This document shows, in pieces, positions 1-7,349 of a stretch of 64,000 nucleotides of DNA. Location of the stretch: assembly GCF_002968285.2 (NCBI RefSeq), contig NZ_CP134400.1:1364001-1428000 (forward strand), given 5' to 3'. This DNA is from Mycobacterium sp. ITM-2016-00318 (GTDB lineage Bacteria; Actinomycetota; Actinomycetes; Mycobacteriales; Mycobacteriaceae). Each line of letters opens with the position of its first letter. Position 1 is the first letter of the stretch. A program made the translations under genes and the position numbers. Under the pieces are notes generated by a model. The model was not told the origin of the DNA. It was given only the letters and a program-made list of their open reading frames with translations, and made no database searches.

Positions 1-1
1 C

Positions 2-496
2 ACCATCATCGAGGACCACCCGTACCTCAACGATCCGGACGGAGTGACACCGGTTCCGGGTGCATCCAACGCTCTGCGAAAGCTACGGGACCGCGGGCTG
101 CTGCTCGGTATCGTCAGCAACCAATCCGGTGTGGCGAAGGGTTTGATCACCCACGACGAGTTGGCTGCGGTGAACACACGGGTGGACGAGGTTCTCGGCC
201 CGTTCGACGCGTGGCAGGTCTGCGTGCACGATGACGGCGACGGCTGCGGTTGCCGCAAGCCTGCGCCGGGGATGGTGGTGGCCGCGGCCGATGCACTCGG
301 CGTGGATGCGACGCGGTGCGTGGTCATCGGCGACACCGGGGGCGACGTCAACGCCGCGCTCGCGGCAGGCGCCGATGCGGTGCTGGTTCCGACCGAACGC
401 ACCCTGCGTCACGAGATCAGTGACGCGCAGATGCGCGCGCGGGTCGCCGCCGATCTTCCCGCCGCGGTGTCACTGGTGTTGAGGGAGTGCCGATGA
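2..496 (+). CDS. gmhB: HAD-family phosphatase, GmhB-like (5' truncated)
   Basis: The frame is open from base 2, so the start and the N-terminal DxDGT nucleophile motif lie before the window. Visible motifs fit the HisB/GmhB branch of HAD phosphatases: an SNQSGV segment, a zinc-type cluster CVH...CGC just before RKPAPGM (from about base 221), and the GDTGGD motif near base 330. GmhB removes the 7-phosphate from heptose 1,7-bisphosphate, the step between the two HldE activities. The last bases overlap the downstream GT9 start (ATGA), and gmhA and hldE follow, so a heptose role is well supported by context. The zinc loop is shorter than in the enterobacterial enzyme. Histidinol-phosphatase activity is the alternative. 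Confidence 0.8.
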   Translation, partial: TIIEDHPYLNDPDGVTPVPGASNALRKLRDRGLLLGIVSNQSGVAKGLITHDELAAVNTRVDEVLGPFDAWQVCVHDDGDGCGCRKPAPGMVVAAADALGVDATRCVVIGDTGGDVNAALAAGADAVLVPTERTLRHEISDAQMRARVAADLPAAVSLVLRECR

Positions 497-1509
497 GCCA
501 CGCCCTCGTCGCCCGACTCGACAGCGCCGGTGATGTGCTCATCACCGGGCCCGCGGTGCGAGCAATCGCGGCTGCCAACGACTCGGTGACCTTCCTGTGC
601 GGGCCACGTGGCCGCGAGGCCGCGGAGCTGCTGCCCTCGGTGGACGAGGTGATCGAGTGGCAGGCGCCGTGGGTCGACTTCGACTCGCCGGAACTCACTG
701 CTGGACACGTTGATGCACTGATCAAGCAGCTGCGCGACATTCGGCCGGACCGGGTGTACATCTTCACGTCGTTTCACCAGTCACCGCTTCCGCTCGCCCT
801 CATCTGCCGCATGGCAGGGGCGCCGTGGGTCGGTGCGATCTGCGAGGACTATCCCGGCACGCTTCTCGACCTGCGACACCGCGTGCCCGACGGGATTCCG
901 GAACCGGAGCGGGCGCTCTCGCTCGCCCGCGCGGGCGGCGCTCCGCTGCCAAGCGGCGACGACGGTGCGCTGCGGATAAAATCTCCTGGGCCTGCCGCCC
1001 ACCTTGCCGACATCGTCACGGCCGCACCGTTTGTCGCCTTTCATCCCGGCGCCGCGGTCCCGGCGCGGCGACCGACCGCCGATCGCAGCGCCGCAATGGT
1101 GCGGGCCCTCGTCGGCAGCGGCTACCGGGTTCTCGTGACCGGCGCGCCCGACGAGAAGAGCCTGACCGCGGAGGTCGCGGGTGACGTGGCCGTCGACCTC
1201 GGCGGTCATACCACCTTGGCGACACTCGCCGCGGTCTACGCCTGCGCGCAGGTCGTCGTCGTACCGAACACCGGACCCGCGCACCTGGCCGCAGCGGTGG
1301 GCGTGCCGGTGGTGTCGCTCTTCGCGCCCGTTGTGCCCGCGTCGCAGTGGTTGCCGTACGGGCACAACGTGATCTGGCTCGGTGACCAGGACGCACCGTG
1401 CCAGCTGACCCGGGCCCGCGAATGCCCGGTGGCCGGCCACCCGTGTCTGGACGGCATCACCGACGCCGAACTGCTCGCCGCGGTCGCTCGATTGGAGGAG
1501 AACTCATGA
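493..1509 (+). CDS. Glycosyltransferase family 9 (heptosyltransferase-like), first copy
   Basis: A 338-residue GT9-like protein. The GT-B C-terminal half is visible: an FHPGAA segment that begins the nucleotide-sugar domain, and NTGPAHLAAAVGVPVVSLFAP, the GT9 hallmark found in WaaC/WaaF/WaaQ. GT9 enzymes transfer heptose from ADP-heptose. The start at 493 (ATG overlapping the preceding stop) is chosen over an in-frame GTG at 487. The stop overlaps the gmhA start (ATGA at 1506-1509), indicating translational coupling. Context (gmhB, gmhA, hldE) makes heptose the likely donor sugar; the acceptor cannot be read from sequence. Confidence 0.8.
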   Translation: MSHALVARLDSAGDVLITGPAVRAIAAANDSVTFLCGPRGREAAELLPSVDEVIEWQAPWVDFDSPELTAGHVDALIKQLRDIRPDRVYIFTSFHQSPLPLALICRMAGAPWVGAICEDYPGTLLDLRHRVPDGIPEPERALSLARAGGAPLPSGDDGALRIKSPGPAAHLADIVTAAPFVAFHPGAAVPARRPTADRSAAMVRALVGSGYRVLVTGAPDEKSLTAEVAGDVAVDLGGHTTLATLAAVYACAQVVVVPNTGPAHLAAAVGVPVVSLFAPVVPASQWLPYGHNVIWLGDQDAPCQLTRARECPVAGHPCLDGITDAELLAAVARLEENS

Positions 1510-2081
1510 TCCACAGCCACATGCAGGCATTGGGTGAGGCCGTGGGCCGCATCGGCCCCGAGGCTTCGCGACTCGCACTCTGGGGCAGGCAGCTTGCCGG
1601 CGTGTTGACCGGCGGCGGGCGGTTACTCGCCTGCGGCAACGGAGGTAGCGCCGCCGAGGCGCAACATCTGACCGCCGAGCTGGTCGGCCGGTTCCGTGAC
1701 GAACGAGCCCCCCTGTCGGCCATCGCGTTGCACGCCGACACCTCCGCACTTACCGCCATCGGCAACGACTACGGAATCGACGAGGTGTTCGCCCGCGGTG
1801 TGCGTGCACACGGCAGACCCGGCGACGTGCTCGTCTCCCTATCCACCAGCGGTACCAGCAGCAATGTGTTGACCGCCGTCAAGGCCGCGCACGAGGGTGG
1901 CCTGACCACCTGGGCACTGACCGGTCCGGCGCCGAACCCGTTGGCGGCGATGTGCGATGACGCGGTCTGTGTCGAGGCGAAGTCCACGGCGACAGTGCAG
2001 GAGATCCATCTTCTGCTCGTGCACGCGTTGTGCATCGCGATCGACGACGTGTTGATCGGCGAGGGGAGGCACAGTGCCTAG
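1506..2081 (+). CDS. gmhA: Sedoheptulose-7-phosphate isomerase GmhA
   Basis: A 191-residue SIS-domain protein, the usual GmhA length. It has GNGGSAAEAQH at residues 44-54 and the phosphate-binding STSGTSSN loop at 113-120, with a conserved Q-E-I-H segment in the C-terminal helix. GmhA converts sedoheptulose 7-phosphate to D-glycero-D-manno-heptose 7-phosphate, the entry step of nucleotide-heptose synthesis, in the cytoplasm. It overlaps the upstream GT9 by 4 bp and hldE by 8 bp. DiaA-type SIS proteins are the main alternative, but the neighbouring hldE and gmhB-like genes settle the assignment. Confidence 0.9.
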   Translation: MIHSHMQALGEAVGRIGPEASRLALWGRQLAGVLTGGGRLLACGNGGSAAEAQHLTAELVGRFRDERAPLSAIALHADTSALTAIGNDYGIDEVFARGVRAHGRPGDVLVSLSTSGTSSNVLTAVKAAHEGGLTTWALTGPAPNPLAAMCDDAVCVEAKSTATVQEIHLLLVHALCIAIDDVLIGEGRHSA

Positions 2082-3396
2082 GCCGCTGGTCGTCATCGGC
2101 GACGTGATGCTCGATGTCGACGTCGAGGGCTCGGCGAGCAGGCTGAGCCCGGAAGCGCCGGTGCCGGTCGTCGACACCGATCGGGTCTGGCGCCGCCCGG
2201 GGGGCGCCGGACTGGCCGCGGTACTGGCGGCGCGCACCGATTCCCCCGTGGTGCTGGTGACGGCGCTCGCCGATGATGCCGACGGACACGCGCTCCGCGA
2301 ACTCCTCGACGAGGCGGGGGTGGACGTCGTTGCGCTGCCGCTGAACGGAAGCACTGTGTGCAAGACGAGAATCCGCGCGCGGGGTCAGTCGATGCTGCGC
2401 CTCGACCACGGTGACGGGACCGCGGCAACGGAGCCGCTTCCGCGGCGCGCTGTCGACGTGCTCGAGGAGGCCCGCGCCATCTGCGTGGCGGACTACGGCC
2501 GTGGCGTCGCCGCCCATCCGGAGATCCGCGAGGCACTCACCCGGGCCTGCGAACACATTCCGGTGGTGTGGGACCCACATCCGCGGGGGGCGTCGCCGAT
2601 TCCCGGTTGCTGGTTGGTGACGCCGAACCAGGCCGAAGCACAGGACGCGTCGGCGGCGTCGCTGCTGCAGCAGTGGTCTGCCCGAGCGGTCTCGGTGACC
2701 ATGGGCGCGAGCGGTGCCCTTCTGGCCACAGGTGACGGGTCGGTGCATGTCCCGACACACGGGGTGTCGGCTGCCGGTGATCCCTGCGGTGCGGGGGACC
2801 GGTTCGCCGTCGCGGCCGCGCTGGCGTTCGCCGAGAACGCCGATGCGCACGAAGCGGTCACCGCCGCCGTCGGCGCAGCAACGGATTTCATCGCGGCGGG
2901 CGGTGCCGTCGGGGTATCTCGCCCGGCGCCGGTGGGTGCGCGGGGGAGCGGCAACGCGGCCGGTGGCGTGGAGGCCGTCCGTCGAAGGGGCGGCAGGCTG
3001 GTGGCCACCGGCGGATGCTTCGACCTGCTGCATACCGGTCACGTCCGTCTGCTGCACGAGGCCCGCCAACTCGGCGATGCCCTCGTGGTGCTGCTCAACT
3101 CCGACGATTCGGTTCGGGCTATGAAGGGGCCGACGAGGCCGGTGATGGCCGCAGCGGACCGTGCGCGGGTGCTGTCGGCACTCGAATGCGTCGACGAGGT
3201 GATCATCTTCGACGAGCATTCGCCCGAGACGGCGTTGGAGCAGCTTCGGCCCGACGTGTGGGTCAAGGGCGGTGACTACGTGGAGGCCGATCTGCCAGAG
3301 GCCGCGGTGGTGCGAAGGCACGGCGGTGAGGTCGTGCTACTGCCCACGGTGGCGGGCTACTCCTCATCCAAACTGATCGCAGCGGCGCGGTCATGA
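2074..3396 (+). CDS. hldE: Bifunctional heptose 7-P kinase / heptose 1-P adenylyltransferase HldE
   Basis: A 440-residue two-domain protein, slightly shorter than the roughly 477 residues of E. coli HldE. The N-terminal PfkB-type kinase (about 1-285) carries GDVMLD at 9-14, a RLSPEAPVPVV segment as in HldE, and the anion-hole motif GAGD at 239-242. The C-terminal nucleotidyltransferase (about 307-440) carries GCFDLLHTGH at 314-323 with the HxGH signature, then KGGDY. It makes heptose 1,7-bisphosphate, and after GmhB dephosphorylation joins the 1-phosphate to ATP giving ADP-heptose. Starts with GTG inside the end of gmhA. As I recall, M. tuberculosis instead has a GDP-heptose type set (gmhA/gmhB/hddA) elsewhere, so hldE here is notable. 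Confidence 0.9.
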   Translation: MPRPLVVIGDVMLDVDVEGSASRLSPEAPVPVVDTDRVWRRPGGAGLAAVLAARTDSPVVLVTALADDADGHALRELLDEAGVDVVALPLNGSTVCKTRIRARGQSMLRLDHGDGTAATEPLPRRAVDVLEEARAICVADYGRGVAAHPEIREALTRACEHIPVVWDPHPRGASPIPGCWLVTPNQAEAQDASAASLLQQWSARAVSVTMGASGALLATGDGSVHVPTHGVSAAGDPCGAGDRFAVAAALAFAENADAHEAVTAAVGAATDFIAAGGAVGVSRPAPVGARGSGNAAGGVEAVRRRGGRLVATGGCFDLLHTGHVRLLHEARQLGDALVVLLNSDDSVRAMKGPTRPVMAAADRARVLSALECVDEVIIFDEHSPETALEQLRPDVWVKGGDYVEADLPEAAVVRRHGGEVVLLPTVAGYSSSKLIAAARS

Positions 3397-3419
3397 TCTT
3401 CAGTCAAAGGAGCCAAATC

Positions 3420-4106
3420 ATGACATTGGGCAACATCCTCATCACCGGGGGCGCATCCGGCCTCGGCGCAGCGACCGTGAAAGCAGTTGCACGCCACGGC
3501 GGTACACCGTTGGTGATCGACCAGCGAAACGTCGAAGGGGACATCGCGTTCGAGCCGGCCGACCTCGCCGACACCGCCGCGGTCGATGCGGCGGTGCGCG
3601 CCCTCGCCGATCGGGTCGGCGACCGCATCGACGGTGTGTTCACCGCCGCGGGCATCGACTCGTGCGGCAAGCTCGACGACGTCGCGGCCAAGGAGTGGGA
3701 GCGGGTCATCCACGTCAACCTGCTGGGCACCGCCGCGGTCATCCGGGCCGCGTTGCCGTACCTGAAGACGACCGGCGGCCGAATCGTCACGTGCGCCTCG
3801 ACATTGGGCATCAAGGCGGTCAGCGACGCCACCGCGTACTGCGCCTCGAAGTTCGGGGTCGTCGGGTTCAGCAGGGCACTCGCCGCCGAGCTCGCCGGCG
3901 AAGTCGGTGTCACGACACTGATTCCCGGCGGAATGCACACGCCGTTCTTCGACGGTCGCACCGAGCAGTACAAGCCGCCGCCGGACGCGAAACTGAACAA
4001 GCCCGAAGACGTCGCGGAGACGGTCGTCTTCGCACTGATGCAGCCGGCGGGGTGCGAGGTGCGCGAATTGGTGGTGTGTTCGTCGACGGAGTCTTCATGG
4101 CCATGA
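3420..4106 (+). CDS. Short-chain dehydrogenase/reductase of the heptose operon
   Basis: A 228-residue classical SDR: TGGASGLG cofactor loop near the N terminus, the IHVNLLGTA segment, and the YCASK catalytic motif. Start 3420 is preferred because AAAGGAG lies at 3406-3412; an upstream ATG at 3393 overlaps the hldE stop. The gene ends inside the next GT9 gene (10-bp overlap). It is not HldD: that epimerase is an extended SDR of about 310 residues. The substrate is unknown; a sugar or sugar-nucleotide carbonyl is an inference from the operon only. Confidence 0.8.
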   Translation: MTLGNILITGGASGLGAATVKAVARHGGTPLVIDQRNVEGDIAFEPADLADTAAVDAAVRALADRVGDRIDGVFTAAGIDSCGKLDDVAAKEWERVIHVNLLGTAAVIRAALPYLKTTGGRIVTCASTLGIKAVSDATAYCASKFGVVGFSRALAAELAGEVGVTTLIPGGMHTPFFDGRTEQYKPPPDAKLNKPEDVAETVVFALMQPAGCEVRELVVCSSTESSWP

Positions 4107-5038
4107 CGCGCGGGACGATCGTCGTCCTTCGCGCCCTCGGGCTCGGTGACCTGCTCACCGGGATTCCGGCGTTGCGCGGACTTCGCAACGCCTATCCCGA
4201 TGCGAACATCGTCCTCGCCACGCCGGAACCGCTGCGCTCGCTGGCGATGCACAGCCAAGCGATCGACGAGGTGCTGCCCACCGCCGGACTTGGCGCCCTG
4301 CCACCGTTGCGTCCTCCGCCGGACATGGCGGTGAACCTGCACGGCAGCGGTCCGGAAAGCATCGCCGACCTTCGGGCGCTGGCTCCAGGGACACTGCTGA
4401 GCCACCGCCACCAGGACCACTCCGACCTGGCGGGTCCGCCATGGCGGTCCGACATGCATGAGGTCGACCGGTGGTGCGCAATGCTGGAATGGTTCGGCAT
4501 CCCCTGCGGTCCGAACGACTTGGGTCTCGCCCGGCCATCCGGTCACCCCGACCGCTCCGGCACGGTCGTCATACATCCTGGCGCGGCGGCGGCGGCACGG
4601 CGATGGCCTGCCAATCGGTTCGCCGCGGTGGCTTCCGCACTCGTCGCACAGGGCAACGACGTCGTCATCACAGGAAGCGCAGGCGAACTGGAGTTGGCCC
4701 ACTCGGTGGCCGGGCAGGCGGGGCTGCCCGAAACCGCTGTGCTGGCAGGCTTGTTGGACCTGATGGATATGGTCGCGTTGATTCACGACTGCAAGCTCCT
4801 CGTCTGCGGGGACACCGGCGTCGGTCATATCGCGACGGCCACCGGAACACCGTCTGTGGTGCTGTTCGGACCGACGCCGCCGCAGTGGTGGGGACCGCGT
4901 GGCAATGGGCCACATGTCGCCGTCTGGGCGGGCGACAGAGGTGATCCGCACGCCGAGGTGCCCGATCCGGGTCTGCTGCTCATCACCGTGGCGCGGGTAC
5001 TGGAAGCGACGCGGGAAGTTCTTCGGGAGTGCGCATGA
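4097..5038 (+). CDS. Glycosyltransferase family 9 (heptosyltransferase-like), second copy
   Basis: A 313-residue GT9 protein with an N-terminal LRALGLGDLLTGIPALRGL segment typical of heptosyltransferases (acceptor-side domain) and the C-terminal GDTGVGHIATATGTPSVVLFGPT motif. It begins inside the SDR gene (ATG 4097; another ATG at 4103 overlaps the SDR stop) and ends with an ATGA overlap with the dehydrogenase gene. It diverges clearly from the first GT9 copy at 493, so the pair may act one after the other on a growing glycan, as WaaC and WaaF do. Donor and acceptor are inferred. Confidence 0.82.
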   Translation: MAMTRGTIVVLRALGLGDLLTGIPALRGLRNAYPDANIVLATPEPLRSLAMHSQAIDEVLPTAGLGALPPLRPPPDMAVNLHGSGPESIADLRALAPGTLLSHRHQDHSDLAGPPWRSDMHEVDRWCAMLEWFGIPCGPNDLGLARPSGHPDRSGTVVIHPGAAAAARRWPANRFAAVASALVAQGNDVVITGSAGELELAHSVAGQAGLPETAVLAGLLDLMDMVALIHDCKLLVCGDTGVGHIATATGTPSVVLFGPTPPQWWGPRGNGPHVAVWAGDRGDPHAEVPDPGLLLITVARVLEATREVLRECA

Positions 5039-6336
5039 CAGGACGACGTGTTGGTGTTGTCGGCGCGGGCTACGTCGGGTTGACGACCGCTGTCTGCCTT
5101 GCCGAAACCGAGCACGACACGGTGTGTGTCGATGTCGATGTCGCCAAAGTCGACAGTCTGAGCCGAGCCGCCACGATGCTCGACGAACCCGGACTGCCCT
5201 TCCTTCTGGTGCGTGGACTCCGGTCGGGAGACCTGCGCTTCACATCCGACTACGCGGAGTTGGCCGACCGTGACGTTGTTTTCGTCTGCGTTCCGACTCC
5301 GAGCGCGGCCGACGGGTCGACGAATCTCAGCTTCGTCGACGCTGCCGTCGGCGAGCTCGCCTCGGTGCTGCGTCCTGGAGCTGTCATCGCGCTGAAATCG
5401 ACTGTTCCGGTCGGAACGACGCGACGAGTCGCGCAGCGGTTGCACGAGACAGGGATCTCCGTCGTCGCGAACCCGGAATTCCTCCGCGAGGGACACGCCA
5501 TCTACGACTTCCGTCATCCCGACCGAATCATCGTCGGAGCCGACGGCGGGCGCGCCGCGACGACGGTGGCCGAGTTGTGCGGCAGCGCAGGGGCATACAC
5601 GCTGCAGATGAGCCCCGAGAGTGCGGAACTGGCCAAGTACGCGAGCAACGCCTTTCTGGCCGTGAAGATCTCGTATGCGAACTCGCTGGCACGACTCTGC
5701 GCACAAGTGGGGGCGAACATCGACGACGTCACCCGATGCATGGGAGCCGATGTCCGCATCGGCGGTCACTTCCTGGCACCCGGTCCCGGTTGGGGTGGTT
5801 CGTGTCTGCCCAAGGACACCGCCTCGCTGCTGCACAGCGGTCGGTCCAACGGTGTCGAGTTGGCCGAGGTGGCGGCGGCATGCGAGACCAACGCCGCCCA
5901 ACCCGGCCGCGTCGCTGCGACGCTCGACCGCGCGATGGGTGTTCCGCTGCGGACGGCAAGGGTGACCGCATTGGGGCTGACGTTCAAGGCGGGCACCAAC
6001 GATGTGCGTGATTCGCCCGCGCTGACCATCTGCGGCGAGCTGATCCGGGCCGGCGCCCAGATCACCGGCTTCGATCCGAAGTTGGCGTCGATCGATCCGG
6101 CTGCGTTGCGGCACTCCTCGATCGTCGCCGTCGATGATGCCTACCTGGCCGCCAAGGGCGCCGACGCCATCGTGCTGCTGACCGAATGGCCCGAGTTCAG
6201 GGACCTGGACTGGTCGGCGATCGCCGACCAGGCACCCGGCGCGGTCGTGCTCGACACCCGCAACCTGCTCGACGCCGCGGTCATCACCGACGCCGGGCTG
6301 CGCTATATCGGTAACGGCGTCCCCGGCGGTTTCTAG
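5035..6336 (+). CDS. ugd: UDP-glucose/nucleotide-sugar 6-dehydrogenase
   Basis: A 433-residue member of the UDP-glucose/GDP-mannose dehydrogenase family. The Rossmann motif GAGYVGL is at residues 10-16, the NPEFLREG segment is present, and the catalytic cysteine is Cys257 in GGSCLPKD; the C-terminal UDP-binding domain follows. The reaction is a two-step NAD+ oxidation of UDP-glucose to UDP-glucuronate. Start 5035 (ATGA overlap) is preferred; GTG 5029 is possible. As the last gene of the heptose operon it suggests that the glycan also carries a uronic acid, unless the enzyme acts on a heptose nucleotide, which the sequence cannot show. Confidence 0.88.
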   Translation: MTGRRVGVVGAGYVGLTTAVCLAETEHDTVCVDVDVAKVDSLSRAATMLDEPGLPFLLVRGLRSGDLRFTSDYAELADRDVVFVCVPTPSAADGSTNLSFVDAAVGELASVLRPGAVIALKSTVPVGTTRRVAQRLHETGISVVANPEFLREGHAIYDFRHPDRIIVGADGGRAATTVAELCGSAGAYTLQMSPESAELAKYASNAFLAVKISYANSLARLCAQVGANIDDVTRCMGADVRIGGHFLAPGPGWGGSCLPKDTASLLHSGRSNGVELAEVAAACETNAAQPGRVAATLDRAMGVPLRTARVTALGLTFKAGTNDVRDSPALTICGELIRAGAQITGFDPKLASIDPAALRHSSIVAVDDAYLAAKGADAIVLLTEWPEFRDLDWSAIADQAPGAVVLDTRNLLDAAVITDAGLRYIGNGVPGGF

Positions 6337-7349
6337 CCGCGCGCCACCTTCCGGATCAGCCGTGCGGTGCTGTCCTCCAGAATGGCCTGCTTCTCACCGG
6401 CGTTCCTGACGCGGTCGGCCCGCCGCACGCCTGCGGCGATGGTCAGGCCCTTCTCGTAGCCCTCGACAACCCGAGGGTCGACATACGAACTGCGGGCCAC
6501 GGCGGGCGTGTTGCCCAGCTCTTCGGAAACCTCTTTCATCACCGCGGACTCCACCCGCTTGATGACGGTTTTGTTCACCGGCGGATCGGTGTCGACGAAG
6601 GCCGCGGCCGCCAGCACCGTGCCGTGCCAGGTTCGCAGATCCTTCACGGTGTACTCGGCGCCGACGAGTTCCTTGAACCTCGCGTTGAGATCGTCGGAGT
6701 GGATGTCGCGCCATTCGTTCGCGCTACGGCACGACAGGAAGCGATCGGTTCTGTTCGGCCGCCGCAGCAGCGCACGCACCGAACGCACCACCTCGGGGTC
6801 GTCGATCAGCAGCGTGCGGCGGACCCCGCTCTTGGCGGGGAAGTCGAACTCGACCGCTTCTCGCTGCAGCGAGACGTGCTCGCACAGCAGCGTCGAGATG
6901 CCGAAGGAGTTGTTCTCCTCGGCGTACTGCTCGCCGCCGGCCCGGAAGTACCCGAGGTCGAGGAGTTGCAGCGCCAGGGCGAGCACCCGTTCGCGGTCGA
7001 GTCCGCGCCTGCGCAGGTCAGCCGCGATGTGTCTGCGCATTTCGGGCAACGACTTCGACATCTCCAGCACCCGGTCGAACTTCTCCTCGGCGCGTTCCTC
7101 CTGCCACTTCTCGTGATAGAGGTATTGCCTGCGCCCCGCGGCGTCGGTTCCCACGGCCTGGATGTGGCCGTTCTCATACGGGCAGATCCAGACTTTCTTC
7201 CAGGCAGGCGGAATGACGAGGTCCTTGATTCTGGTGAGCGTCGCCTCGTCGCTGATGGGTTTGCCGTCTGGGTCGTGATAGGAGAATCCGCGCCCGCGCC
7301 GGACTCGGCTGAGTCCGGGGCCGCTCACTAGGCTTCGGCGCAGCCGCAT
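6333..7349 (-). CDS. DNA topoisomerase IB (poxvirus/bacterial type)
   Basis: A 338-residue type IB topoisomerase of the compact bacterial class. The N-terminal DNA-binding lobe includes FSYHDPDGKPISDEATLTRI and IPPAWKKVWI; the catalytic domain contains KSGVRR, RTWHGT and a candidate nucleophile Tyr289 in RSSYVDPRV. These enzymes relax supercoils through a 3'-phosphotyrosyl intermediate without ATP. The ATG at 7349 gives the full domain. It is convergent with ugd, and the two TAG stops share the CTAG at 6333-6336. It is accessory to the essential TopA and gyrase. Confidence 0.88.
   Translation of the reverse strand: MRLRRSLVSGPGLSRVRRGRGFSYHDPDGKPISDEATLTRIKDLVIPPAWKKVWICPYENGHIQAVGTDAAGRRQYLYHEKWQEERAEEKFDRVLEMSKSLPEMRRHIAADLRRRGLDRERVLALALQLLDLGYFRAGGEQYAEENNSFGISTLLCEHVSLQREAVEFDFPAKSGVRRTLLIDDPEVVRSVRALLRRPNRTDRFLSCRSANEWRDIHSDDLNARFKELVGAEYTVKDLRTWHGTVLAAAAFVDTDPPVNKTVIKRVESAVMKEVSEELGNTPAVARSSYVDPRVVEGYEKGLTIAAGVRRADRVRNAGEKQAILEDSTARLIRKVARG

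Follow-up and report, generated by a model that had tools for sequence, protein, structure and literature searches.

A twelve-gene cluster of Mycobacterium sp. ITM-2016-00318 resembles the actinobacterial cwg operon and is predicted to make a heptose-containing envelope glycan

Introduction

The cwg operon of Streptomyces coelicolor (SCO6179-6190) is a 12-gene putative cell wall glycan operon (Hong et al. 2002, as referred to in passages of PMC6767563 and PMC5839063). In these passages, its products are labelled as transferases (B, C, E, G and J), a dehydratase (D), a phosphoheptose isomerase (H) and a bifunctional synthase/transferase (I); its expression is partly sigma-E-dependent and induced by vancomycin, and its product is predicted to belong to the wall. 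As far as the available passages of the literature go, no identified product of this operon was found. In this work, we analyzed a 64,000-nucleotide stretch of the genome of Mycobacterium sp. ITM-2016-00318 (contig NZ_CP134400.1; hereafter the window), which contains the right half of a cluster of genes predicted to act in heptose-nucleotide synthesis and sugar transfer. Judging from its gene families and their order, we favor, with some reserve, the view that this cluster is a mycobacterial form of the actinobacterial cwg-type operon.

Three other described systems share part of this gene set. The Gram-negative ADP-heptose pathway (GmhA-HldE-GmhB-HldD, with the transferases WaaC/WaaF) has in common with it the isomerase, kinase/nucleotidyltransferase and phosphatase families and the family 9 glycosyltransferases (GT9); however, in the mycobacterium there is no HldD over cut-off and no LpxC, the equivalog models are missed and the GT9s are distantly related. 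The GDP-D,D-heptose set of Mycobacterium tuberculosis (GmhA, HddA, GmhB, HddC) also starts from sedoheptulose 7-phosphate, according to passages of PMC7705670, but it uses HddA/HddC and GDP, whereas the present cluster has an HldE-like protein and holds the only SIS_2 protein of this genome. In the lipopolysaccharide (LPS) core of Pseudomonas, a carbamoylated heptose is attributed to the putative carbamoyltransferase WapO (PMC8005017, in part), so that a carbamoyltransferase stands beside heptose transfer, as here, although envelope and gene set differ. A genome survey, in the passages available (PMC7725333), places ADP-linked L-glycero heptose only in Gammaproteobacteria; the D-glycero form is predicted here. 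Among the papers listed in searches of the open-access literature, we found no reports of HldE or ADP-heptose in mycobacteria. Further sources, likewise available in part, were PMC11461863, PMC11573728, PMC12507525, PMC3902916 and PMC13011467.

Gene content and layout

The window comprises contig bases 1364001-1428000 of a 5.46-Mb single-contig genome, and the 17 kb to its left (L002) were read together with it. A first-pass annotation had described seven genes in one direction with overlapping ends at the start of the window, the first being a gmhB-like phosphatase. The positions and the strand were borne out, but these genes are the right half of a 13-kb cluster of 12 genes that starts at contig 1357328, 6.7 kb left of the window, and ends at window base 6336, the window beginning inside it. 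What had been taken for gmhB at 2-496 is only a piece of a gene: it encodes the C-terminal 164 residues of a GT2-GmhB fusion protein of 497 aa, whose gene has its start 997 bases left of the window edge. The genes are as follows (window coordinates unless the contig is named):

Contig 1357328-1358299, left of the window: GT4a
Contig 1358319-1359527, left of the window: GT4b
Contig 1359539-1360405, minus strand (opposite to the rest of the cluster): GT2
Contig 1360446-1361411, left of the window: UXS-like epimerase
Contig 1361393-1363006, left of the window: carbamoyltransferase
Contig 1363003-1364496, plus strand: GT2-GmhB fusion, 497 aa, its 3' end being window 1..496
493..1509, plus strand: GT9a, glycosyltransferase family 9 (PF01075, 73.4 bits)
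1506..2081, plus strand: GmhA-like, putative sedoheptulose-7-phosphate isomerase (PF13580, 85.7 bits; TIGR00441, 168.5 bits)
2074..3396, plus strand: HldE-like, putative heptose-7-phosphate kinase / heptose-1-phosphate nucleotidyltransferase (PRK11316, 273.6 bits; TIGR02199, 177.5)
3420..4106 (alternative start 3393), plus strand: SDR oxidoreductase with YCASK (PF00106, 128 bits)
4097..5038, plus strand: GT9b, second glycosyltransferase family 9 (PF01075, 92.2 bits)
5035..6336, plus strand: UGD-like UDP-sugar dehydrogenase, which closes the cluster (TIGR03026, 407 bits)
6333..7349, minus strand: topoisomerase IB, convergent, the boundary and outside the cluster (PF01028, 98.5 bits)

Seven of the 11 neighbouring gene pairs overlap, by 4 to 19 bases, which suggests translational coupling; within the window the ends overlap throughout, save for a 23-base gap before the SDR gene when its start is placed at 3420. 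The GC content of the cluster (67.5-68.8%) is close to that of its surroundings (67.2-67.7%). The grouping is far beyond chance, given that the mycobacterial loci examined repeat these genes in this order.

Predicted enzymes of heptose-nucleotide synthesis and sugar transfer

The GmhA-like protein matches a phosphoheptose isomerase among the solved structures of the PDB (2.6e-49). The window part of the fusion is a GmhB-like HAD phosphatase domain whose best solved relative is GmhB of E. coli (1.4e-20); its C.H and C.C residues, which we take to be zinc ligands, align with those of the E. coli protein, and DRDDT is present in all 33 fused orthologues. Hydrophobic segments lie between the two domains of the window protein, making assembly at the membrane plausible; this linker is uneven among the orthologues, 13 of 33 having no segment at the threshold used. 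The HldE-like protein matches structures 5x9q, named a putative cytidylyltransferase (2.4e-29), and 4e84, a heptose kinase (1.7e-15), and it carries HxGH and GAGD, which are conserved in 74/74 and 73/74 orthologues, respectively. We consider it very probable that the cluster enzymes synthesize an NDP-heptose.

Two GT9, two GT4 and two GT2 proteins (one of the latter fused to GmhB) give six glycosyltransferases among the 12 genes. Both GT9s exceed the PF01075 gathering score (73.4 and 92.2 against 22) and miss the heptosyltransferase equivalog cut-offs; the relation to solved structures is weak, GT9b matching PDB 3tov (1.4e-17) and WaaF 1psw (1.4e-15), and GT9a also weakly matching 3tov and WaaF. 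An alignment of 29 GT9a sequences showed invariant GD, NT..H and C..C..H.C positions. The C-terminal part of GT9a (window 1399-1446) carries Cys-x7-Cys-x4-His-x-Cys in all 78 orthologues counted, a possible metal site. GT9a is part not only of the mycobacterial loci but also of the cluster versions of Micrococcaceae, Rathayibacter and other actinobacteria.

The first-pass annotation had also raised the possibility of a uronate step, which the UGD-like enzyme upholds and which the upstream UXS-like enzyme and the carbamoyltransferase refine. The UGD-like protein passes the general model TIGR03026 (407 bits, cut-off 189.8) and misses all the sugar-specific equivalogs, for example TuaD (329.3 against 700); GSCLPKD occurs in all 27 mycobacterial orthologues. 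Because the best solved relative of the UXS-like protein is the human UDP-glucuronate decarboxylase (1.5e-94, the next class being at 1.4e-39), UDP-xylose is its likely end product, and we consider xylose a reasonably likely component of the final molecule. The carbamoyltransferase is close to solved members of its class (best 1.5e-92; TobZ, 6e-86), and carbamoylation by the cluster is predicted with fair confidence. YCASK is present in 75/75 SDR orthologues.

Comparison with the cwg operon

In the Streptomyces-like locus L107, we observed 12 genes in the order UXS-CarbT-GT2-GmhB-GT9a-GT4a-GT4b-GmhA-HldE-GT9b-GT2-GT2, with GmhA in the 8th and HldE in the 9th place. Locus L109 has the same layout through HldE, as far as its contig goes. 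Named Streptomyces proteins share up to 96% identity with the HldE of L107. This order agrees with the labels of the S. coelicolor operon, as given in the passages cited above, at eight positions (cwgB, C, D, E, G, H, I and J), the agreement at cwgD holding if its "dehydratase" is a HisB-like GmhB. The mycobacterial cluster holds all the families of the L107 layout, and there are twelve genes in both; GmhA, HldE, GmhB, GT9, GT4, GT2, carbamoyltransferase and UXS-like genes are clustered as in the cwg type, which was compared through the Streptomyces-like genome. In contrast, the mycobacterial GT2 is fused to GmhB, a UGD gene stands at the end and an SDR gene after HldE, two GT4 genes are at the front and one GT2 gene is on the other strand, so that the order is partly shuffled. 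L113, from the same family as the mycobacteria, likewise has the fusion, a UGD and an SDR. On account of the L107/L109 layout, the published cwg labels and the sigma-E/vancomycin response, we take the mycobacterial cluster to be of the cwg type, and its orthology with cwg appears highly probable. The earlier annotation had inferred an unrecognised glycan, whereas the layout of the cluster matches the visible part of the S. coelicolor operon.

Related clusters are spread through the class. At a threshold of E 1e-70, 47 genomes out of 246 gave an HldE match, and these 47 fall into 27 of the 103 genera sampled. In stretches from ten of these genomes (L106-L115), HldE, GmhA, GT9a, GT4b and the carbamoyltransferase occur together in eight; in L108 and L115 the carbamoyltransferase is absent from the stretch. 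The order GmhB-GT9a-GT4a-GT4b-GmhA-HldE-SDR is found in Arthrobacter L036 and Rathayibacter L054, and other Micrococcaceae and Rathayibacter loci are similar. Most of the loci from Arthrobacter, Pseudarthrobacter and some Rathayibacter (among L032-L076) have two different HldE genes, and in L036 the second is preceded by a 480-residue gene that looks, by eye, like an aldehyde dehydrogenase.

Distribution and conservation in mycobacteria

Thirteen proteins were compared by tblastn with 89 loci, the relatives being the best 80 of 97. The cluster was found in order in mycobacterial loci that include records titled M. gordonae, M. scrofulaceum, M. persicum, M. asiaticum and Mycolicibacterium senegalense, and the same order recurs save for contig ends and some missing peripheral genes. 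In the 35 named mycobacterial loci, recovery ranged from 25 (the GT2 on the minus strand) to 35 (GT9a, GmhA and HldE). No in-frame stop was present in any match to the 12 genes in these 35 loci, and two matches (one GT4b, one UGD) were short without a contig end. By tblastn, L007 gave no match to UXS and UGD, and L014 and L065 gave none to the two GT4s. Beside the cluster, apart from its own genes and topoisomerase IB, the most widespread groups of neighbours, compared as groups without family names, occur in at most 14 of 36 loci.

The cluster is not peculiar to this strain, as shown by the genus scan and by the spread among genera described above: of 396 genomes, 99 have HldE and 93 have GT9b, with both in 91, HldE alone in 8 and GT9b alone in 2. 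HldE lies in one near-full-length stretch in 87 of the 91 genomes with both genes, and is in pieces or partial in G377, G267, G308 and G100. Seven of the eight HldE-alone genomes have a second HldE lineage (36-39% identity), and the eighth, G282 (L100), has one decayed copy of the cluster. In G079 (L098) and G349 (L099) the middle of the cluster is deleted, leaving SDR (partial in L099), GT9b and UGD. Median dN/dS values for seven genes were 0.12-0.26, from 11 or 12 hand-picked, partly overlapping and non-independent pairs. We therefore reject the idea that these are pseudogenes, given the intact frames of the 35 loci and the low dN/dS, the decayed copy and the two deletion remnants notwithstanding; the concern that the genes might be scattered pseudogenes in relatives applies, among the genomes seen here, only to those few.

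In an HldE tree built with FastTree (128 rows, none proteobacterial, the deeper joins being unsure owing to long branches), the mycobacterial HldEs of the cluster type fall together in a single clade of 47 rows (99*), joined, at a support of 85 that is not starred, by Nonomuraea, a second genus of the same family and a third group. The idea of a plasmid-borne cluster was also considered and discarded: a tblastn search of a plasmid collection with HldE gave 53 records, all less than 60% identical, and no mycobacterial one was present among the 25 matches listed or the ten genera tallied by name.

Predicted product and alternative explanations

From the observed genes, their order and motifs, their conservation and co-inheritance, and the occurrence of these gene families in an operon of cwg layout in a Streptomyces-like genome, we infer every reaction of the following pathway, as well as the composition and the envelope location of its product. 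GmhA would convert sedoheptulose 7-phosphate to D,D-heptose 7-phosphate, and the UGD- and UXS-like enzymes would supply UDP-glucuronate and UDP-xylose. Heptose would be transferred by the two GT9s and the other sugars by the GT4 and GT2 pairs, with the GmhB-fused GT2 probably acting at the membrane; the NodU/TobZ-type enzyme would O-carbamoylate a sugar, and the SDR would alter a sugar or sugar nucleotide. Since no HldD passes the cut-off in this genome (best 83 bits against 274.6), the sugar is likely D,D- and not L,D-heptose, unless the SDR changes it. The likeliest product would be an O-carbamoylated envelope saccharide, oligomeric or polymeric, that contains D,D-heptose together with xylose or glucuronate, and we lean toward such an envelope glycan over a small molecule or another product.

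Several results weigh against this interpretation. Curated cut-offs were missed by the GmhA-like protein (TIGR00441, 168.5 bits against 209.45), by the GmhB domain in the window part of the fusion (NF006506, 108.3 against 178; TIGR00213, 62.6 against 149.6) and by the HldE-like protein (PRK11316, 273.6 against 521), whose kinase domain falls far below TIGR02198 (137.4 against 345, 208 bits short) and whose nucleotidyltransferase domain falls just below TIGR02199 (177.5 against 181.5, 4 bits short), for which reason we call it HldE-like. Its end motif is T-V-A-G-Y-S-S-S (TVAGYSSSK in the window) and not (F/L)XXGXSTT, so that the nucleotide it uses is uncertain. According to passages of reviews, NTP-promiscuous heptose nucleotidyltransferases carry (F/L)XXGRSTT (the STTR5 motif); the mycobacterial proteins have Tyr where the promiscuous enzymes carry Arg, and SSS or close variants replace STT, whereas the Rathayibacter and Streptomyces-like proteins have Arg at that position. 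Family searches detected no flippase, polymerase, ligase or acyltransferase among the 12 genes, and acceptor, export and nucleotide are the weakest points of the envelope-glycan interpretation. The comparison with cwg used Streptomyces-like genomes and published labels; moreover, of the four loci of genus code g49, two have the cwg layout (L107, and L109 cut by its contig), L106 is rearranged and L108 has HldE without the others. A sigma-E-like promoter was not enriched upstream of the cluster, being present in 0 of 27 loci with a strict pattern and in 3 of 27 with a loose one, against 3.8 in random windows, mycobacterial sigma factors being different; a loose -10 pattern was commoner upstream (15/27 against 5.4, in control windows that were not intergenic).

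The alternative that survives best, though we regard it as unlikely, is a secreted heptose-containing small molecule, aminoglycoside- or septacidin-like. It would fit the lack of export, polymerase and ligase genes among the 12, the use of ADP-heptose for septacidin in Streptomyces reported in passages of reviews, and the presence of HldE, GT9 and carbamoyltransferase in natural-product-like clusters of the Streptomyces plasmids pFRL3 and pFRL5. However, the cluster has six glycosyltransferases and no aminotransferase, polyketide synthase (PKS) or nonribosomal peptide synthetase (NRPS) among its 12 genes, HldE occurs in 27 of the 103 genera sampled, and, in the passages cited, the operon with this layout in S. 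coelicolor responds to a cell-envelope-stress sigma factor. The two plasmid clusters (L104, L118) contain radical SAM, P450, SHMT, GT9, carbamoyltransferase, a 650-residue HldE-type protein and an epimerase or oxidoreductase.

Slightly less probable still is that the cluster glycosylates a lipid or a protein, yielding a glycolipid of the lipooligosaccharide (LOS)/glycopeptidolipid (GPL) kind or a heptosylated protein. The hydrophobic segments of the fusion protein, as well as the protein heptosylation known in E. coli (a review, in part), are compatible with this, but those segments are weak in the orthologues and missing from the 13 noted above, no lipid-making or target gene is among the 12, and topoisomerase IB is the one frequent neighbour.

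It is improbable that the HldE-like enzyme and its partners act on another sugar phosphate and make no heptose. The missed equivalog cut-offs and the unusual YSSS end motif speak for it, whereas GmhA, the GmhB domain and HldE accompany GT9s in loci of mycobacteria, Micrococcaceae, Rathayibacter, Nonomuraea and the Streptomyces-like genomes, and the HldE orthologues of G004 and G011 pass TIGR02199.

Acquisition of the cluster from a Gram-negative bacterium, as a set of the LPS-core type, has only family names in its favor and is hardly credible, as the HldEs of the plasmid collection are, among the matches listed, 47-56% identical in Actinomycetes against about 37-41% in Gram-negatives like E. 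coli, the mycobacterial clade (99*) lies among actinobacterial rows in a tree that held no proteobacterial ones, GC is native, LpxC and an HldD over cut-off are lacking, and other mycobacteria have a set that is nearer to the LPS kind and looks different.

The earlier claim that a mycobacterium lacking signs of LPS carries a heptose-nucleotide set and two GT9s agrees with these data. LpxC had 0 matches in this genome, and its only two GT9s and only SIS_2 protein are those of the cluster; together with the lack of an HldD over cut-off, this makes LPS very unlikely in this strain. Passages of PMC7705670 speak of lipopolysaccharide in mycobacteria, which nothing in the present data supports. The second, more LPS-like heptose set was seen in a few mycobacteria (L094, L096, L097 and L093, from G293, G313, G034 and G322), with HldE of the second lineage and a GC content of 58-61%. 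L094 and L097 have HldD over cut-off (354 and 301 against 274.6), GmhB, GT9 and a Wzz-like gene (by eye in L094), L097 also has Wzx- and Wzy-like genes, and the second-lineage HldE of L096 scores 713.9 against the cut-off of 521.

Significance

NDP-heptoses are described in passages of reviews as potent ligands of the innate-immune kinase ALPK1, and the enzymes that make them as widespread in bacteria and other kingdoms; mycobacteria may already have been included, unremarked, in the survey behind that statement. A more speculative and rather doubtful extension of our interpretation is that about a quarter of mycobacterial species would have an undescribed carbamoylated D,D-heptose/xylose surface glycan, of the kind whose operon Streptomyces induces on vancomycin, and that the NDP-heptose would make them ALPK1-agonist producers. 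A heptose glycan, if true, would be a new component of the mycobacterial envelope. The likeness to cwg, an operon for which we found no identified product, makes its product predictable and testable, and the mycobacterial version of the cwg enzymes predicts which sugars to seek in both Streptomyces and mycobacteria.

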